The position numbers and the translations under genes are program-made. From Paracoccaceae bacterium (lineage in GTDB: Bacteria > Pseudomonadota > Alphaproteobacteria > Rhodobacterales > Rhodobacteraceae): a stretch of DNA of 64,000 nucleotides. Location of the stretch: positions 434,001 to 498,000 of the forward strand of contig JASMHC010000014.1 in assembly GCA_030750975.1 (NCBI GenBank), written 5' to 3'. The notes beneath the pieces are model-generated. The model saw only the letters and a program-made list of their open reading frames with translations. It did no database searches and was not told the DNA's origin. The stretch's first letter is position 1, and every line of letters starts with the position of its first letter. This document shows positions 58,086 to 64,000 of this stretch, in pieces.

Positions 58086-59483
58086 ATGCTCTTTAACGAA
58101 TTGCAATATTGGGTTTTTTTCGCGCTGGTCATGACCGGCTATGTGCTGTTGCCGCACAAGGCCCAGAACCGGTTTTTGCTTGTCGCCAGCTATGTTTTCT
58201 ACGGCTTTTGGGATTGGCGGTTTCTCGGGCTGATCATGTTCAGCACCGTTGTCGATTACGTGATCGGCCAGAAAATCCACCACGAAACAGCCGAGACCCG
58301 CCGCAAACGCCTGTTGTGGATTTCCTTGGGGGTGAATCTCGGGCTGCTGGGGGTCTTCAAGTATTTCAACTTTTTCATCGATACATTCGCAGCCGTGCTA
58401 ACCCAGGCCGGGGTGTCGGCCAACCTGCCTGCCCTGTCGATTATCCTGCCCGTGGGCATATCGTTTTACACGTTCCAGACCCTCAGCTATACGATCGATA
58501 TTTACCGGCGCGAGTTGAAGCCGACGGATGATTTTCTGGACTACGCGCTGTTCGTCGCCTTTTTCCCCCAGCTTGTGGCCGGTCCCATCGAACGCGCCAA
58601 AAACCTGCTGCCCAATATCATCGCCCCGCGCAAACTGACTTGGGCGGCCTTTGAGCGCGGTCTTGGCCTGTGCCTGATCGGCCTGATAAAAAAGGTCGCC
58701 ATCGCCGATGCCATCGCCCCGACGGTGGATTCGGTGTTTGCTTCGCCCGATCCGACACGGGCGGATGTGATCCTTGCCTGCTGGCTGTTTGCCATCCAGA
58801 TCTATTGCGATTTTTCTGGTTATACCGACATCGCCCGAGGCACCGCCAAGGCGCTTGGGTTCAGGCTGATGCGCAACTTTGCCCAGCCCTATTTCGCGAT
58901 CAACCCGCGCGAATTCTGGCAGCGCTGGCATATCAGCCTGTCCACCTGGCTGCGCGACTATCTGTATTTCTCGCTCGGTGGCAGCCGGAAAGGGCGGGCA
59001 CGGACCCATATAAACCTGATCACCACCATGTTGCTTGGCGGGTTGTGGCACGGGGCGGCGTGGAATTTCGTGCTGTGGGGCGCCTACCAAGGCGGCATCC
59101 TTTCGCTCTATCGCGTGTTGCCGAAATGGTCTTTGGGGTCGTGGTTCGGCCTGAAACGACTGATCGGCATCGCCCTGTTCTTTCAGATCACAAGCTACGG
59201 CTGGCTTTTGTTCCGCGCTGACTCATTTGTGCAGATCAGGGATTTCACCAATCGTCTGCTGTTTGACAGCAACGCGCTGACCGCCCAGCTTCCGCCCTTC
59301 CCGGCGTTTGTCGCTATCCTGATCGTGCTGATCTGGGATATCCTGTCCGAACGCGCCGGACGCGGGCATTTCTACGCAAGTTGGCCCAACGCGGCCCGCG
59401 CTTTTGTCTATGCCGGTCTGATCTATCTGCTGGCCTTTGGCGGCACCGTTTCCACCCAATCCTTCATCTACTTCCAGTTCTGA
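58086..59483 (+). CDS. MBOAT O-acyltransferase, AlgI-like
   Basis: A 465-residue polytopic membrane protein of the MBOAT family. The order of motifs matches AlgI: YVFYGFWDWRFLGLIMFSTVVDY, LGVFKYFNFF, LPVGISFYTFQTLSYTIDIYR, FPQLVAGPIERAKNLLP, NPREFWQRWHISLSTWLRDYLYFSLGG and the catalytic His322 in GGLWHGAAWNFVLWG. Such proteins move acetyl groups across the inner membrane onto exported polysaccharides. The stop lies 4 bp before the SGNH-like gene, its likely partner. No alginate genes are present. Confidence 0.93.
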   Translation: MLFNELQYWVFFALVMTGYVLLPHKAQNRFLLVASYVFYGFWDWRFLGLIMFSTVVDYVIGQKIHHETAETRRKRLLWISLGVNLGLLGVFKYFNFFIDTFAAVLTQAGVSANLPALSIILPVGISFYTFQTLSYTIDIYRRELKPTDDFLDYALFVAFFPQLVAGPIERAKNLLPNIIAPRKLTWAAFERGLGLCLIGLIKKVAIADAIAPTVDSVFASPDPTRADVILACWLFAIQIYCDFSGYTDIARGTAKALGFRLMRNFAQPYFAINPREFWQRWHISLSTWLRDYLYFSLGGSRKGRARTHINLITTMLLGGLWHGAAWNFVLWGAYQGGILSLYRVLPKWSLGSWFGLKRLIGIALFFQITSYGWLLFRADSFVQIRDFTNRLLFDSNALTAQLPPFPAFVAILIVLIWDILSERAGRGHFYASWPNAARAFVYAGLIYLLAFGGTVSTQSFIYFQF

Positions 59484-59487
59484 TCCC

Positions 59488-60567
59488 ATGGCCCGCTTTT
59501 TGAAAACCCTCGCTTTGACGATCCTGCTTCTGGCGGGGCTTGATCTGTCGGTGGCCGGGGCATTGCGGGTCGCTGAAAGCCGGGGGATGCTGACCAGCCT
59601 TGTGCGCTTTTTTGAATATGGCCGCTCGGTGCCGGGTAAACATGCGGTATGGCAAAACACTCTTGGGTCTGTCGACAACCCGATGGAGGCTTCATGGATC
59701 GACGGTGTTCTTACCGGCCCGCTGTTTTATGAGGGCGCGACTGATGATCCCTCTGCACTGACCATTCGCAGTTACGGCATGTCCTTTTCGGCCAATATTT
59801 TCAGAGCGGCGGTAAAAATGGATCCCAGCCTGACATGGGACGCCCATGTGGCACCGGCCGCTTCGCCCAATTTCGTCTACTACGCCAACCAGTTGGACCG
59901 CCCCAACCGCGACGCGGGCGACATCGTGGTGCTAAGCTTTCTATCTTCGTCCGTCCCCGGCATGGCGTCACTGTCGAACCGCACATGGAACCCCGAACAG
60001 CCCATGCCCTTCACCTATCCGATCTATCGCGCGGTGAACGGTCAGCTTCAATCGACCCAGCCAATCGTCACCTCGCTTGAGGATGAACTGAACCCTGCTT
60101 TCCGCGAAAGCTGGAACCGGCAGTTGCGCACCGAAGACGCGAACTACCTTCCCATTGCCTTCGCCTGGCCGGCCCTCGACCGCTCGCCCTTCTTCCGTTT
60201 GATCCGCCGCGCGTTCACATCACGGCAGCAAACCAAAGCCAAACAGGCGATCCTTAAACCAGAAGCCTTCCCGATTGCAGAGACGCTGCAATTGATGGCC
60301 CTGAAATTCGCACAAGACGCGCGAAAGGACGGGCAGCTTCCGATCCTTTTCCTTATCCAGGGGCGCGACCCGGGCGATGTTCAATTGCTTGAATTGCTGA
60401 AACCCGTGCTGGACGCGAACAATATTGCCTATTTGGCCACTGTCGAACTTGTCGATCCGACCAATCCGGCAAATTTCCGCTCGGACGGTCATTATCAATT
60501 CATCAAAGACGACATTTTCGCCGAGGCCTTTCTTGATCTGATCAAGGACTGGACGCGCACGCCTTAA
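59488..60567 (+). CDS. Periplasmic SGNH-like protein paired with MBOAT
   Basis: A 359-residue protein with an N-terminal signal or anchor helix (FLKTLALTILLLAGLDLSVAGAL). IRSYGMSFSANIF could hold a nucleophile Ser, and FRSDGHYQFIKDDIFAEAF near the C-terminus gives a D-x-H-like pair, the arrangement of SGNH/AlgX/AlgJ-type acetyltransferases. It would take the acetyl group exported by the MBOAT and place it on a surface glycan. The triad is inferred, not certain. It converges on the dehalogenase gene, their stop codons overlapping. Confidence 0.7.
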   Translation: MARFLKTLALTILLLAGLDLSVAGALRVAESRGMLTSLVRFFEYGRSVPGKHAVWQNTLGSVDNPMEASWIDGVLTGPLFYEGATDDPSALTIRSYGMSFSANIFRAAVKMDPSLTWDAHVAPAASPNFVYYANQLDRPNRDAGDIVVLSFLSSSVPGMASLSNRTWNPEQPMPFTYPIYRAVNGQLQSTQPIVTSLEDELNPAFRESWNRQLRTEDANYLPIAFAWPALDRSPFFRLIRRAFTSRQQTKAKQAILKPEAFPIAETLQLMALKFAQDARKDGQLPILFLIQGRDPGDVQLLELLKPVLDANNIAYLATVELVDPTNPANFRSDGHYQFIKDDIFAEAFLDLIKDWTRTP

Positions 60568-63500
60568 AGATCAACCTCGATCACCCCGTCCGGTTCCGCC
60601 GCCCGGCTTTGGCACAGGATGATGCTGTGTTCGCGCTGCTTTTTGGACAGAACGAAATCGCGATGCTCAACCTCGCCCGAGATCAGGCCGCATTTACACA
60701 CACCACATATCCCGTCCGAGCATTTCACATCCACATGCACCCCGTTTTCGGCCAGAACGTCGGTCGGATTACGGTCGGCGGGCACATGAATTTCCCGCCC
60801 GGATTTTGCCAGCCGGATGGTGAAATCATGGTTCTCATAATCCGGCTGCTCGGGGACGCTGAAATACTCAAGATGCCGCGCCTCTTCAGGAAAACCCTGA
60901 CGCTCGGCAGCTTGCATTACCCCGTCCATATATCGGTCCGGTCCGCAGGTATACACATGCCAACCCGCCTGATATCCCGCCAAAACCTGATCCAGATCGG
61001 CCCGTGTGCCCTGATCCGAGAAATGCAGCCGCACTTTATCCGCCCAGGGCACCTGCTCCAGATCATCCAGATAGCCCGCGCCATCCTTGCGGCTGCATGA
61101 ATAATGAAGCGCGAAATCCCGGCCCAAAGCATGCAGCCGGTGGGCGAAGGCGATCATTGGCGTCACGCCGATCCCGCCGCCCATCAGAAATGTTTTCGTG
61201 GCGTCCTCGACCAGTTCGAAATGGTTGATGGGCCTTGAGATAAAAACCTTGCGGCCTTCGTTGAAAATCCGGTGCAGCATCAGCGACCCGCCGCGCCCTT
61301 CGTCTTCACGCAGCACGCCGATCTGGTATTTCGACCGGTCCGCCGGATCACCCGACATGGAATACTGCCGCAAAAAGTCCGGCGTCACCAACACATCCAA
61401 ATGTGCCCCCGCCGTCCATTCCGGCAGATCTGCCCCGTCCAGCGTTGAAAACTCGTATTTCGTCACATCGCCTGTCATCGGCTCGACCTTTGAGACCTGC
61501 ACCCGCACCACGGGCGAAGTTCCCTCGCCCTGGTAGCGATGCAGATGGCCGGTCTCGCCCCGCGCCAGCCTGGCGCGGTGCTCTGCCGCCGTCACCAGAT
61601 GGGCATAGGCCTCGATCCCCGCCTCGCGATCCATCGGGAACGGATAGGGCCAGGGATGCGGCGCAATATCGGCCGGATAGACGGCCAGCGTCTGATCCTC
61701 GTAAGTCACCTCAAGCTCGGGCTGCAATCCCCGGCGGTTCAGCGGCTTGCGGGTCGGGCGATAGGCGCCGTCGGCCTCAAGCTCGATATCCCACCACCAT
61801 TTCTTCACATCATTCAGCCCGCCATTGCCCAAGCGGTCATCCAGTTCGGCCAAAGGACGCGCCAGCGCCGGGATGTTCGATGCCGCCCAGCGAAAGGGGG
61901 CCTCGGCGAATAGCCCCTCAAGGTTCCACGGGCAGGTTTTCATGCAGCGCCCGCACATCGCGCCGCCTTCGGTCGTGATACGGTAGGTCGCGCATTTCTG
62001 GCTGTCGGATTTCCAGATCTCGTAGCCATTGAACATCAGCTTCGGACCCGCCGTAATCGCACCCGAGGGGCATTCGCGGGCGCATTTGTTGCAGTTTTCG
62101 CAAAAGTTCTGCAAGCCAAAGTCAATCGGCTTATCATGGGCCATGGGCATGTCCGTCGTCACCACACCGGATTTCAGGCGCGGCCCCAGATAGGGGTTCA
62201 GGATCACTTCGCCAATGCGGCTGACCTCGCCCAGGCCCGACAAAAGCAGCAATGGCGGCTGCAACACATCGCCATCCATCACCGTATGCGCCTTGGCCCC
62301 ATAGCCCAGGTTGCGGATTTGCTGGGCGATCACCCCCCCAAGCAAGGAAAAGCGCAGATAGGCCCGCATGGATTGTGCCACGCTGATCCAGTCATCGCCG
62401 CTGGCCCCCTCCATCGTTTGATAGCCCTGATCAATGATCATGCTGATCGCCTGATCATGCGGCGGATCCACAGGCTCGGCCGCCGCATTGTGGGAATACC
62501 ACGTCCAATCAGGGCAACGCGAAAGGCCCACCGCATCCACCCCAAGGAAATAGCAAGCGGCCTTTATGTTTTCGGCATTGCGCGCCGCGTCCGTTGGCCG
62601 CGGGCCATCGGCGTTGGCCTCGCCATCCTGCAAAAGCACGAACGCCCCCAATGCCCGCCGCTGGGCGAATGAGGGCGCGGCCTTGCGGGCGTAATAGCCC
62701 CCCCTTGCACCATCCTGCACATGTTTGCCCATATCGCCAAACTGGGCGCGGGCAAACATATCCGCGCGTTTGGGAACGCGGGGCACGTTCGGTTCATCAA
62801 TATAGGTGGTCGGGGCGTCGACCCGTTTGAGCTTTTCAAATGGGTGCGGACCGTCCACAAACCGGCGTCTGGCAAACGGGTCGCGGTTAAATCCGTTCTT
62901 CTCGAACCCTTTACCGAACCACCATGCGGGGCCATGGGTGCGCCAATAGGGCTGGGCATCCGCAGGGGCCAAAGGCTGATCAACCGCCAATTCAAGCGTG
63001 GTTGTCAGCACCGCAACCCCGAAATCACGCCCGATCCACGGGGCATACAACTGCCTCTTTTCGGCTGTTGCCAAACCGGCGGCCACGGTCAGTCGGTTCA
63101 AGTCCACATCGCTGGATGAACAGGAATGCGCCTTGGCATCCCAGCCAATAAGGCGGATGTAATTTGCCAGAACACAAGCCGTTTCATTGGCCCGCAATCC
63201 GGCCCGCTGGGCCTGCGCGTCGGTGATCCACGCGGCCCCTGCCTCGTCGCTGCGCGGTGCGCGTGGATTTTCATAAAGAAAGACAATCGCGTGGCTGTGC
63301 CCCTCGATACCCGAGGGCGGGGCCTTCATACTGTCCTTCAGATCGGCCATGATCATATCAATGCCCGAGGCCAACGTCTTGGTCTGCCGCGTCCGCATCG
63401 CCTCGGCCAGCCGGTCGATATCGGGATTACGGTATGGCTGATCCAGCACATCCCCGGCCTGCAACCGGCAAATTCCCACCATGGACGCATCCGAGAAATA

Positions 63501-63776
63501 GCCGAACGCCTTCAGATGATCCGCCCGCTCTTGCGGATCAGCGGGAATGTCCGACCTCACCTTGTTTACCAAACCGTCGCGGATCGCGTCCATCATCGCC
63601 TGATAGTCCCGCATGGCGTTGACGATATTTTCAGGGGCTTGCGGATTACGGAAGCTGACCGGCTGGGCGGCGGGCACATCCGACAGGTCGGCGCCTGTTA
63701 CGCGCTTCAGACGCTCGACCGGGTAAGGGCCAAGATGAACAGGCCTGTCCTTGGCAGAAAAAAACCGGATGTTCAT
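60564..63776 (-). CDS. Self-sufficient reductive dehalogenase (RdhA fused to an FMN/NAD(P)/[2Fe-2S] reductase)
   Basis: 1070 residues from the ATG at 63776 (GGAG 7 bp upstream; a GTG at 63782 is less likely). Residues about 70-300 and 390-555 look like two copies of the B12-binding nitroreductase-like fold (compare WDAKAHSCSSSDVDLNRLTVAAGL with YGAKAHTVMDGDVLQPPLLLLSGL). Two 4Fe-4S clusters follow: CENCNKCAREC (559-569) and C595 with CGRCMKTC (608-615). The rest is a phthalate dioxygenase reductase-like module: RQYS (803-806) for FMN, GGGIGVTPM (about 862) for NAD(P), and a plant-type [2Fe-2S] with Cys1019, 1024, 1027 and 1055. No Tat signal, so it is cytoplasmic, and no RdhB anchor is visible. 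This layout matches BhbA/NpRdhA-type aerobic enzymes. Confidence 0.88.
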   Translation of the reverse strand: MNIRFFSAKDRPVHLGPYPVERLKRVTGADLSDVPAAQPVSFRNPQAPENIVNAMRDYQAMMDAIRDGLVNKVRSDIPADPQERADHLKAFGYFSDASMVGICRLQAGDVLDQPYRNPDIDRLAEAMRTRQTKTLASGIDMIMADLKDSMKAPPSGIEGHSHAIVFLYENPRAPRSDEAGAAWITDAQAQRAGLRANETACVLANYIRLIGWDAKAHSCSSSDVDLNRLTVAAGLATAEKRQLYAPWIGRDFGVAVLTTTLELAVDQPLAPADAQPYWRTHGPAWWFGKGFEKNGFNRDPFARRRFVDGPHPFEKLKRVDAPTTYIDEPNVPRVPKRADMFARAQFGDMGKHVQDGARGGYYARKAAPSFAQRRALGAFVLLQDGEANADGPRPTDAARNAENIKAACYFLGVDAVGLSRCPDWTWYSHNAAAEPVDPPHDQAISMIIDQGYQTMEGASGDDWISVAQSMRAYLRFSLLGGVIAQQIRNLGYGAKAHTVMDGDVLQPPLLLLSGLGEVSRIGEVILNPYLGPRLKSGVVTTDMPMAHDKPIDFGLQNFCENCNKCARECPSGAITAGPKLMFNGYEIWKSDSQKCATYRITTEGGAMCGRCMKTCPWNLEGLFAEAPFRWAASNIPALARPLAELDDRLGNGGLNDVKKWWWDIELEADGAYRPTRKPLNRRGLQPELEVTYEDQTLAVYPADIAPHPWPYPFPMDREAGIEAYAHLVTAAEHRARLARGETGHLHRYQGEGTSPVVRVQVSKVEPMTGDVTKYEFSTLDGADLPEWTAGAHLDVLVTPDFLRQYSMSGDPADRSKYQIGVLREDEGRGGSLMLHRIFNEGRKVFISRPINHFELVEDATKTFLMGGGIGVTPMIAFAHRLHALGRDFALHYSCSRKDGAGYLDDLEQVPWADKVRLHFSDQGTRADLDQVLAGYQAGWHVYTCGPDRYMDGVMQAAERQGFPEEARHLEYFSVPEQPDYENHDFTIRLAKSGREIHVPADRNPTDVLAENGVHVDVKCSDGICGVCKCGLISGEVEHRDFVLSKKQREHSIILCQSRAAEPDGVIEVDL

Positions 63777-64000
63777 CGTCACGCTCCTGAAGGGGTTGCC
63801 AAAAAAGTTAACTTGTATCTCAATTTAATCTCGAAACGCTTTCATTGTTAAGCGCAACTCTGTGTATCGGGGAAATCATCCACACAGAAAGCCGAGGGTT
63901 TCGTTTTCTGCAACCTGGCTATACCAAATCGTCCGTGGTCGCAGTGGCTGAGGCGGGTTATTCACCCTTTCAGACAATGACACAAAGGAAGCAAAGCAAG
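63777..64000. promoter_or_regulatory. Upstream region of the dehalogenase gene
   Basis: No gene is visible. It holds the palindrome AAGTTAACTT (63805-63814), the 16-bp motif TTAATCTCGAAACGCT (63825-63840), and an inverted repeat CGCTT-N8-AAGCG (63837-63854) overlapping it. Any of these could be a regulator site for the dehalogenase. A divergent gene may start beyond the right edge. Confidence 0.4.
63825..63840. repeat. 16-bp dispersed motif, copy 3
   Basis: TTAATCTCGAAACGCT, identical to 2945-2960 and inverse to 41879-41894. It lies 49-64 bp upstream of the dehalogenase ATG. Confidence 0.5.

Follow-up and report, generated by a model that had tools for sequence, protein, structure and literature searches.

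A fused, self-sufficient reductive dehalogenase predicted in a Paracoccaceae bacterium and common among its relatives

Introduction

Reductive dehalogenases fused to their own reductase have already been described and expressed, and the enzyme reported here adds one more example of a type that is common among its relatives. According to its published account, JtRdhA of Jhaorihella thermophila (WP_104007082) is self-sufficient. It was produced in E. coli carrying the BtuCEDFB uptake plasmid, and in assays it removed bromine and iodine with NADPH, even in the presence of air; the chloro compounds tested are reported there as inhibitory and without turnover, and 3-bromo-4-hydroxyphenylacetate as converted at 99% of the dibromobenzoate rate, with activity on iodophenols too (PMC10463259). 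The same paper exemplifies fused enzymes with BhbA of Comamonas sp. 7D-2 (plasmid pBHB, WP_015585978), which debrominates 3,5-dibromo-4-hydroxybenzoate, as recounted in PMC13101508. For NpRdhA of Nitratireductor pacificus (PDB 4RAS, 6ZXU, 6ZXX, 6ZY0 and 6ZY1), on the other hand, the crystallized chain comes without a reductase module and activity was driven by non-physiological redox partners (PMC10463259, Discussion), which makes it a poor model of a self-sufficient enzyme. Ros_A3X954, the debrominase of Roseobacter sp. MED193, is a roseobacter RdhA that also has no Tat signal and acts on 2,6-dibromophenol, but its cluster motifs are placed at residues 283-345, it is reported to hold about 8 Fe per mole and to lose activity in oxygen, and, judged from this description, it is apparently a shorter, unfused subtype (PMC13101508). 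A tree legend of PMC10463259 also names RdhA proteins from Ruegeria pomeroyi (AAV93904) and Tropicibacter phthalicicus, and PMC13101508 restates from earlier work that putative homologues of bhbA are widespread in the Roseobacter clade.

Results

The window analyzed here is the whole 64,000-nucleotide stretch of contig JASMHC010000014.1 from a Paracoccaceae bacterium. Its minus strand carries at 60564..63776 an intact fused reductive dehalogenase gene encoding 1070 amino acids, a single uninterrupted ORF with its ATG at 63776 and its stop at 60564-60566. The preliminary description had given this interval without a strand; the frame stands, and the strand is supplied here, the plus-strand reading of 60564-63776 being interrupted by stops. 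A likely ribosome-binding site, AGGAG (63784..63788, minus), lies 7 bases 5' of the ATG, and an alternative GTG start at 63782, two codons upstream, would leave next to no spacing to it. The GC content of 60001-64000 (0.590) falls within the range of the other 4-kb blocks of the window, and a promoter and terminator scan returned counts close to the shuffled means (2 versus 2.2 and 6 versus 4.8). The gene is genuine and not a chance frame, since an essentially full-length relative is found in 77 of 198 family genomes and column identity averages 81% when the protein is aligned with 54 relatives.

The reductive dehalogenase family TIGR02486 matched at E=1.1e-57 (196.3 bits versus a curated cut-off of 160.35), and a phmmer search of the PDB aligned residues 4-109 and 159-748 with NpRdhA (4RAS, E=6e-161) and residues 757-1066 with phthalate dioxygenase reductase (2PIA, E=1e-55). 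From the N terminus, and with all coordinates on the minus strand, the chain begins with a degenerate copy of the B12-binding domain (residues 80-325, 62802..63539), found by hhalign against the catalytic copy, within which lies an insert that is missing in the NpRdhA alignment and from the solved NpRdhA chain (residues 110-158, 63303..63449) and is probably the one described for JtRdhA and related fusions (PMC10463259). The catalytic B12-binding domain (residues 395-560, 62097..62594), delimited by hhalign and the NpRdhA alignment, is followed by two [4Fe-4S] motifs (residues 559-570, 62067..62102, and residues 608-616, 61929..61955), by an FMN- and NAD(P)H-binding part that sequence and fold matches liken to phthalate dioxygenase reductase (residues 756-972, 60861..61511), and by a C-terminal [2Fe-2S] ferredoxin domain (residues 985-1070, 60567..60824) supported by Fer2 (E=1.4e-9) and the alignment, with its cysteines at 1019, 1024, 1027 and 1055. 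The Fer2 and 4Fe-4S families fall where expected. The duplication relating residues 80-325 to 395-560 has an hhalign probability of 99.3% (E=1.5e-20, 29% identity over 154 columns), as against 0.0% for a control comparing the same N-terminal part with the reductase part. The first 60 residues contain no RR and therefore no Tat motif, unlike respiratory reductive dehalogenases, which are marked by a Tat signal. The preliminary description had proposed a cytoplasmic reductive dehalogenase fused in frame to its own reductase, free of a Tat signal and equipped with two 4Fe-4S clusters, an internally duplicated B12 domain and a complete C-terminal FMN/NAD(P)/[2Fe-2S] module, and all of these features are borne out.

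This layout is that of the described fusions. By its published description JtRdhA likewise has no Tat signal, a duplicated B12 domain, two 4Fe-4S clusters, an insert relative to NpRdhA, a PDR-like reductase and the catalytic residues; JtRdhA was assayed, whereas the query is known from sequence, and the likeness rests on that published description (PMC10463259). BhbA matches over its full length, at 50.3% identity over 1065 columns, with the same layout and catalytic residues, and the RdhA part of NpRdhA is 42.4% identical over 583 columns, sharing catalytic residues and predicted fold. JtRdhA and BhbA are the right models for the query enzyme; of the proposed match to BhbA and NpRdhA types, the BhbA-like fused enzyme stands, but NpRdhA, crystallized without a reductase, does not serve as an example of self-sufficiency.

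Epoxyqueuosine reductases belong to the same B12 class (PMC10463259), and the QueG family TIGR00276 gave a weak match over residues 497-580, rejected as the identity of the protein at 22.8 bits versus a cut-off of 200, compared with 196.3 versus 160.35 for the dehalogenase family. That the protein should be QueG or another class III B12 enzyme instead of a dehalogenase is exceedingly improbable, as the dehalogenase residues are retained and the first PDB fold matches are NpRdhA. QueG is not known to carry such a reductase fusion.

The preliminary description had proposed comparing a predicted structure with NpRdhA for its catalytic Tyr, Lys and Arg, and all three are retained: the proton donor Tyr426 corresponds to Tyr473 (62358..62360, minus), its partner Lys488 to Lys535 (62172..62174, minus) and Arg552, which binds the substrate hydroxyl, to Arg599 (61980..61982, minus). 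Together with NpRdhA F291, S422 and M423, which are F341, S469 (the substrate-binding Ser) and M470 in the query, they are identical in 61 of 61 aligned sequences. Broken copies with stops do occur in relatives (a second copy in G193, pieces in G096), but the frame described here is open over 1070 residues and keeps its catalytic and cluster residues, so that a decayed or inactive copy is very unlikely. The AlphaFold model, built with 55 aligned sequences, has a mean pLDDT of 73.3 and a pTM of 0.68, with weak stretches (pLDDT <50) that include 452-464, 499-533 and 575-591. In a Foldseek search of the PDB, NpRdhA chains took the first 14 ranks (TM-score by target 0.79-0.80, rmsd 5.5-6.3); two P450 fusions (6LAA and 6KBH) and then 2PIA came next. 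The predicted fold therefore matches NpRdhA first, and by this match cobalamin binding is predicted; the model supports the fold and not the side-chain geometry.

The wall of the substrate pocket, on the other hand, differs from both characterized enzymes. NpRdhA F290, F310, A419 and N452 are replaced by M340, Y362, V466 and V499 in the query, and BhbA has F, S, S and A at these positions. All 55 sequences compared (the query plus 54 of 80 named loci, nine Hyphomicrobiales copies included) share the four query residues; since these sequences were picked by similarity to the query, the fixation applies to this set alone. At a fifth pocket position (NpRdhA P311), 36 of the 55 have A and 19 have V. 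Beyond the 55, M, Y, V and V are also found in the Ruegeria TM1040 and Aminobacter plasmid copies, but in the Jannaschia plasmid copy, which is more distant, L replaces M and the other three are kept. With four pocket residues replaced, substrate preference is not transferable from NpRdhA. In that enzyme, the second bromine, the one not bound to cobalt, has a pocket lined by A419, and the A419M variant has increased relative activity with a mono-bromo acid with no improvement in absolute rate (PMC7565698), which makes Val466 a testable difference.

The preliminary description had counted this type among the few known, yet it is not rare: full-length fused relatives occur in the 77 family genomes mentioned above (own genome included) at 52-100% identity, with partial, split or broken copies (e.g. 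G099, G102, G096 and G160) left out of the count. At E<=0.001, 160 of the 198 genomes match, many via the reductase part alone. At the class level, 31 of 385 genomes match at E<=1e-100, 9 of them full-length and the remaining 22 across all or some of the RdhA part; at the phylum level, 17 of 398 match at E<=1e-200, all from the same class and 16 of them full-length. Plasmid records gave 9 matches at E<=1e-60, 8 covering at least 80% of the query. Broken or split copies were seen in relatives at G193:C12:38798-40105, G096:C17:15109-16784 and G099:C4:333239-336432, the first coexisting with an intact copy on another contig. A contig titled Flavobacteriales (L099) has a copy nearly identical to that of the Rhodobacteraceae bin L098, with the same downstream neighbors, and is probably a misplaced bin contig.

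The only other genome of the same genus in the sample has a copy at 71% identity, whereas other genera reach 79%, and the two 1.5-kb flanks of that same-genus copy gave no blastn match (E<=1e-3) to the query's own 20-kb stretch. In a quick gene tree, Hyphomicrobiales copies are intermixed with Rhodobacterales copies, the Rhodobacterales label requiring 8 changes (6 forced by starred branches) versus a shuffled mean of 9.6, a value as low as 8 being reached in 32 of 500 shuffles; by itself this topology is compatible with transfer between orders and is no proof of it. Taken together, the identities, the unshared flanks, the mixed tree and the plasmid copies fit a dehalogenase that is a mobile single gene.

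At its own locus the gene looks solitary. Downstream lies a convergent 376-aa frame (window 59437-60564), followed by what reads by eye as an MBOAT-like acyltransferase; upstream, on the own-contig stretch L005 (window coordinate = L005 coordinate + 50000), lies a divergent 269-aa frame (L005:14101-14910), followed by ribosomal protein genes read by eye. Neither flanking frame had a match in Pfam or NCBIfam; with regard to the RdhB anchor gene of respiratory enzymes, these two are the ORFs called on either side among frames of at least 80-90 aa, compared with Pfam and NCBIfam and not with a model of RdhB. A transposase-like integrase frame, read by eye, is present near the end of the contig (L006:8315-9172), about 15 kb from the dehalogenase gene. 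BhbA, in contrast, is encoded near ligA on a conjugative plasmid, whereas the solitary query gene resides on a 513-kb contig that also carries ribosomal protein genes. A conserved operon, sought in 81 loci (80 named and the own locus), was not found as a general rule, the neighbors being conserved clade-wise only: neighbors were called on both sides in 77 of the 81, and in 28 of these 77 neither neighbor family occurs in at least 3 loci. For example, the neighbors of Ruegeria copies include a gene that looks LysR-like by eye and a molybdenum enzyme from the xanthine dehydrogenase family. The latter is directly downstream on the same strand in 21 of the 80 named loci (20 titled Ruegeria and one Alphaproteobacteria bin; e.g. 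L083:12341-15938), its alpha subunit being called near the gene in 20. In L083 it has three subunits, the alpha subunit best matching that of 4-hydroxybenzoyl-CoA reductase, with all matches below NCBIfam cut-offs. This Ruegeria-side enzyme may process the debrominated product.

The genome itself (G000; 3.19 Mb in 22 contigs) holds one fused dehalogenase gene, its three other matches being to the reductase part alone. The preliminary description had pointed to cobalamin genes elsewhere in the genome as something to look for, and synthesis genes were found: the cobaltochelatase CobN is above cut-off on contig C18, and the frames around it look by eye like genes of aerobic cobalamin synthesis. 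Of three cobalamin riboswitches that exceed the cut-off, C18 carries two and C14 one. On C3, pobA scores 670.9 bits, above its cut-off, beside an AraC-type regulator frame that is below the cut-offs of named regulators, and on C5, pcaH scores 333.9 bits versus a cut-off of 296.4. CobN, the riboswitches, pobA and pcaH together indicate that a B12 supply and a 4-hydroxybenzoate route exist, on other contigs.

Across the 198 genomes, the co-occurrence of pobA and the dehalogenase is only mild: pobA is above cut-off in 59 of 77 carriers versus 73 of 121 non-carriers (Fisher p=0.02, uncorrected for kinship and genome size). In 5 of the 59 genomes with both genes, pobA and the dehalogenase are no more than 20 kb apart (0.8 expected, p~0.001), and in 2 of the 59 within 1 kb (0.04 expected), one being G197, the best-scoring family relative at 79% identity; these expectations assume uniform placement in 3 Mb and one pobA place per genome, and ignore relatedness and contig ends. 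In the other 54 pobA is not within 20 kb, and 18 of the 77 carriers have no pobA above cut-off. In tblastn searches (E<=1e-15) of the 80 named loci, whose flanks extend up to 9 kb and are often shorter, pobA was found in one, a Nitratireductor bin (L054), 86 bases downstream; L045 has pcaHG-like genes and pcaC, L093 pcaC, L043 a weak pcaC-like match, and L107 and L114 each a LigB-like match. Going by the record annotations, BhbA is preceded, one gene upstream, by ligA together with a subunit of a class III extradiol dioxygenase, and the Nitratireductor OM-1 copy has pobA and dioxygenase genes no farther away than about 5 kb. The recurrence of pobA or protocatechuate genes nearby, in a minority of cases, favors brominated 4-hydroxybenzoate-like substrates.

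Discussion

Our analyses suggest, with a probability of about 0.93, that the gene encodes a soluble, self-sufficient catabolic reductive dehalogenase with the electron route, chemistry and substrates set out here. We infer its reaction, substrates, oxygen tolerance and use of NADPH, and the individual steps would follow by homology to JtRdhA and NpRdhA. In the C-terminal module, FMN would receive a hydride from NAD(P)H, and electrons would then travel one at a time via the [2Fe-2S] domain and both [4Fe-4S] clusters until they reach base-off B12 seated in the second B12 domain. An ortho-halogenated phenol would have its halogen placed on the cobalt and its phenol oxygen held by Lys535, Arg599 and Ser469, and Tyr473 would donate a proton while the carbon-halogen bond breaks. 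The freed phenolic acid would then enter the pobA/protocatechuate route present in the genome.

The enzyme very probably removes bromine or iodine from phenol-like compounds. The preliminary description had proposed removal of bromine or chlorine; bromine is kept as a prediction, but chlorine should not be assumed, and bromine and iodine are the safer prediction because JtRdhA is described as accepting these two halogens and as not turning over the chloro compounds tested (PMC10463259). The substrates are most likely bromo- or iodo-4-hydroxybenzoate-like acids and related bromophenols, for which algae and sponges are a plausible source. It is possible, if somewhat unlikely, that the natural substrate of a true dehalogenase is instead another ortho-halogenated phenol, such as bromo-4-hydroxyphenylacetate, a simple bromophenol or an iodophenol, the pobA neighborhood being one of several outlets. 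Pocket residues unlike those of NpRdhA and BhbA yet fixed in the 55 close sequences, the activity reported for JtRdhA on 3-bromo-4-hydroxyphenylacetate and iodophenols (PMC10463259), the 18 carriers with no pobA above cut-off and the highly varied gene surroundings all speak for such a substrate, whereas the recurrence of pobA or protocatechuate-ring genes near the gene in several settings speaks for the 4-hydroxybenzoates.

A purely detoxifying role, in which bromophenols are disarmed and the product is left unused, would agree with a solitary gene and with the lack of an operon common to the loci, including the 28 of 77 with no recurrent neighbor family; we consider it rather doubtful, since the own genome carries pobA and pcaH and pobA is closer than chance in some relatives. 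We also tentatively raise, as an unlikely but assayable proposal, that the roseobacter-type fused enzymes form a functional subgroup of their own, which may have shifted toward mono-brominated or iodinated phenolic acids and may have moved from one alphaproteobacterial order to another as a debromination cassette made of a single gene; it draws on the fixation of M, Y, V and V in the 55 sequences, unlike NpRdhA and BhbA, and on Val466 at the second-halogen site. The pocket differences offer clear and inexpensive assays. From an ecological point of view, a self-powered dehalogenase gene that is common in the family (77 of 198 genomes) bears on the natural cycling of bromine and iodine and also on the clean-up of brominated phenols.
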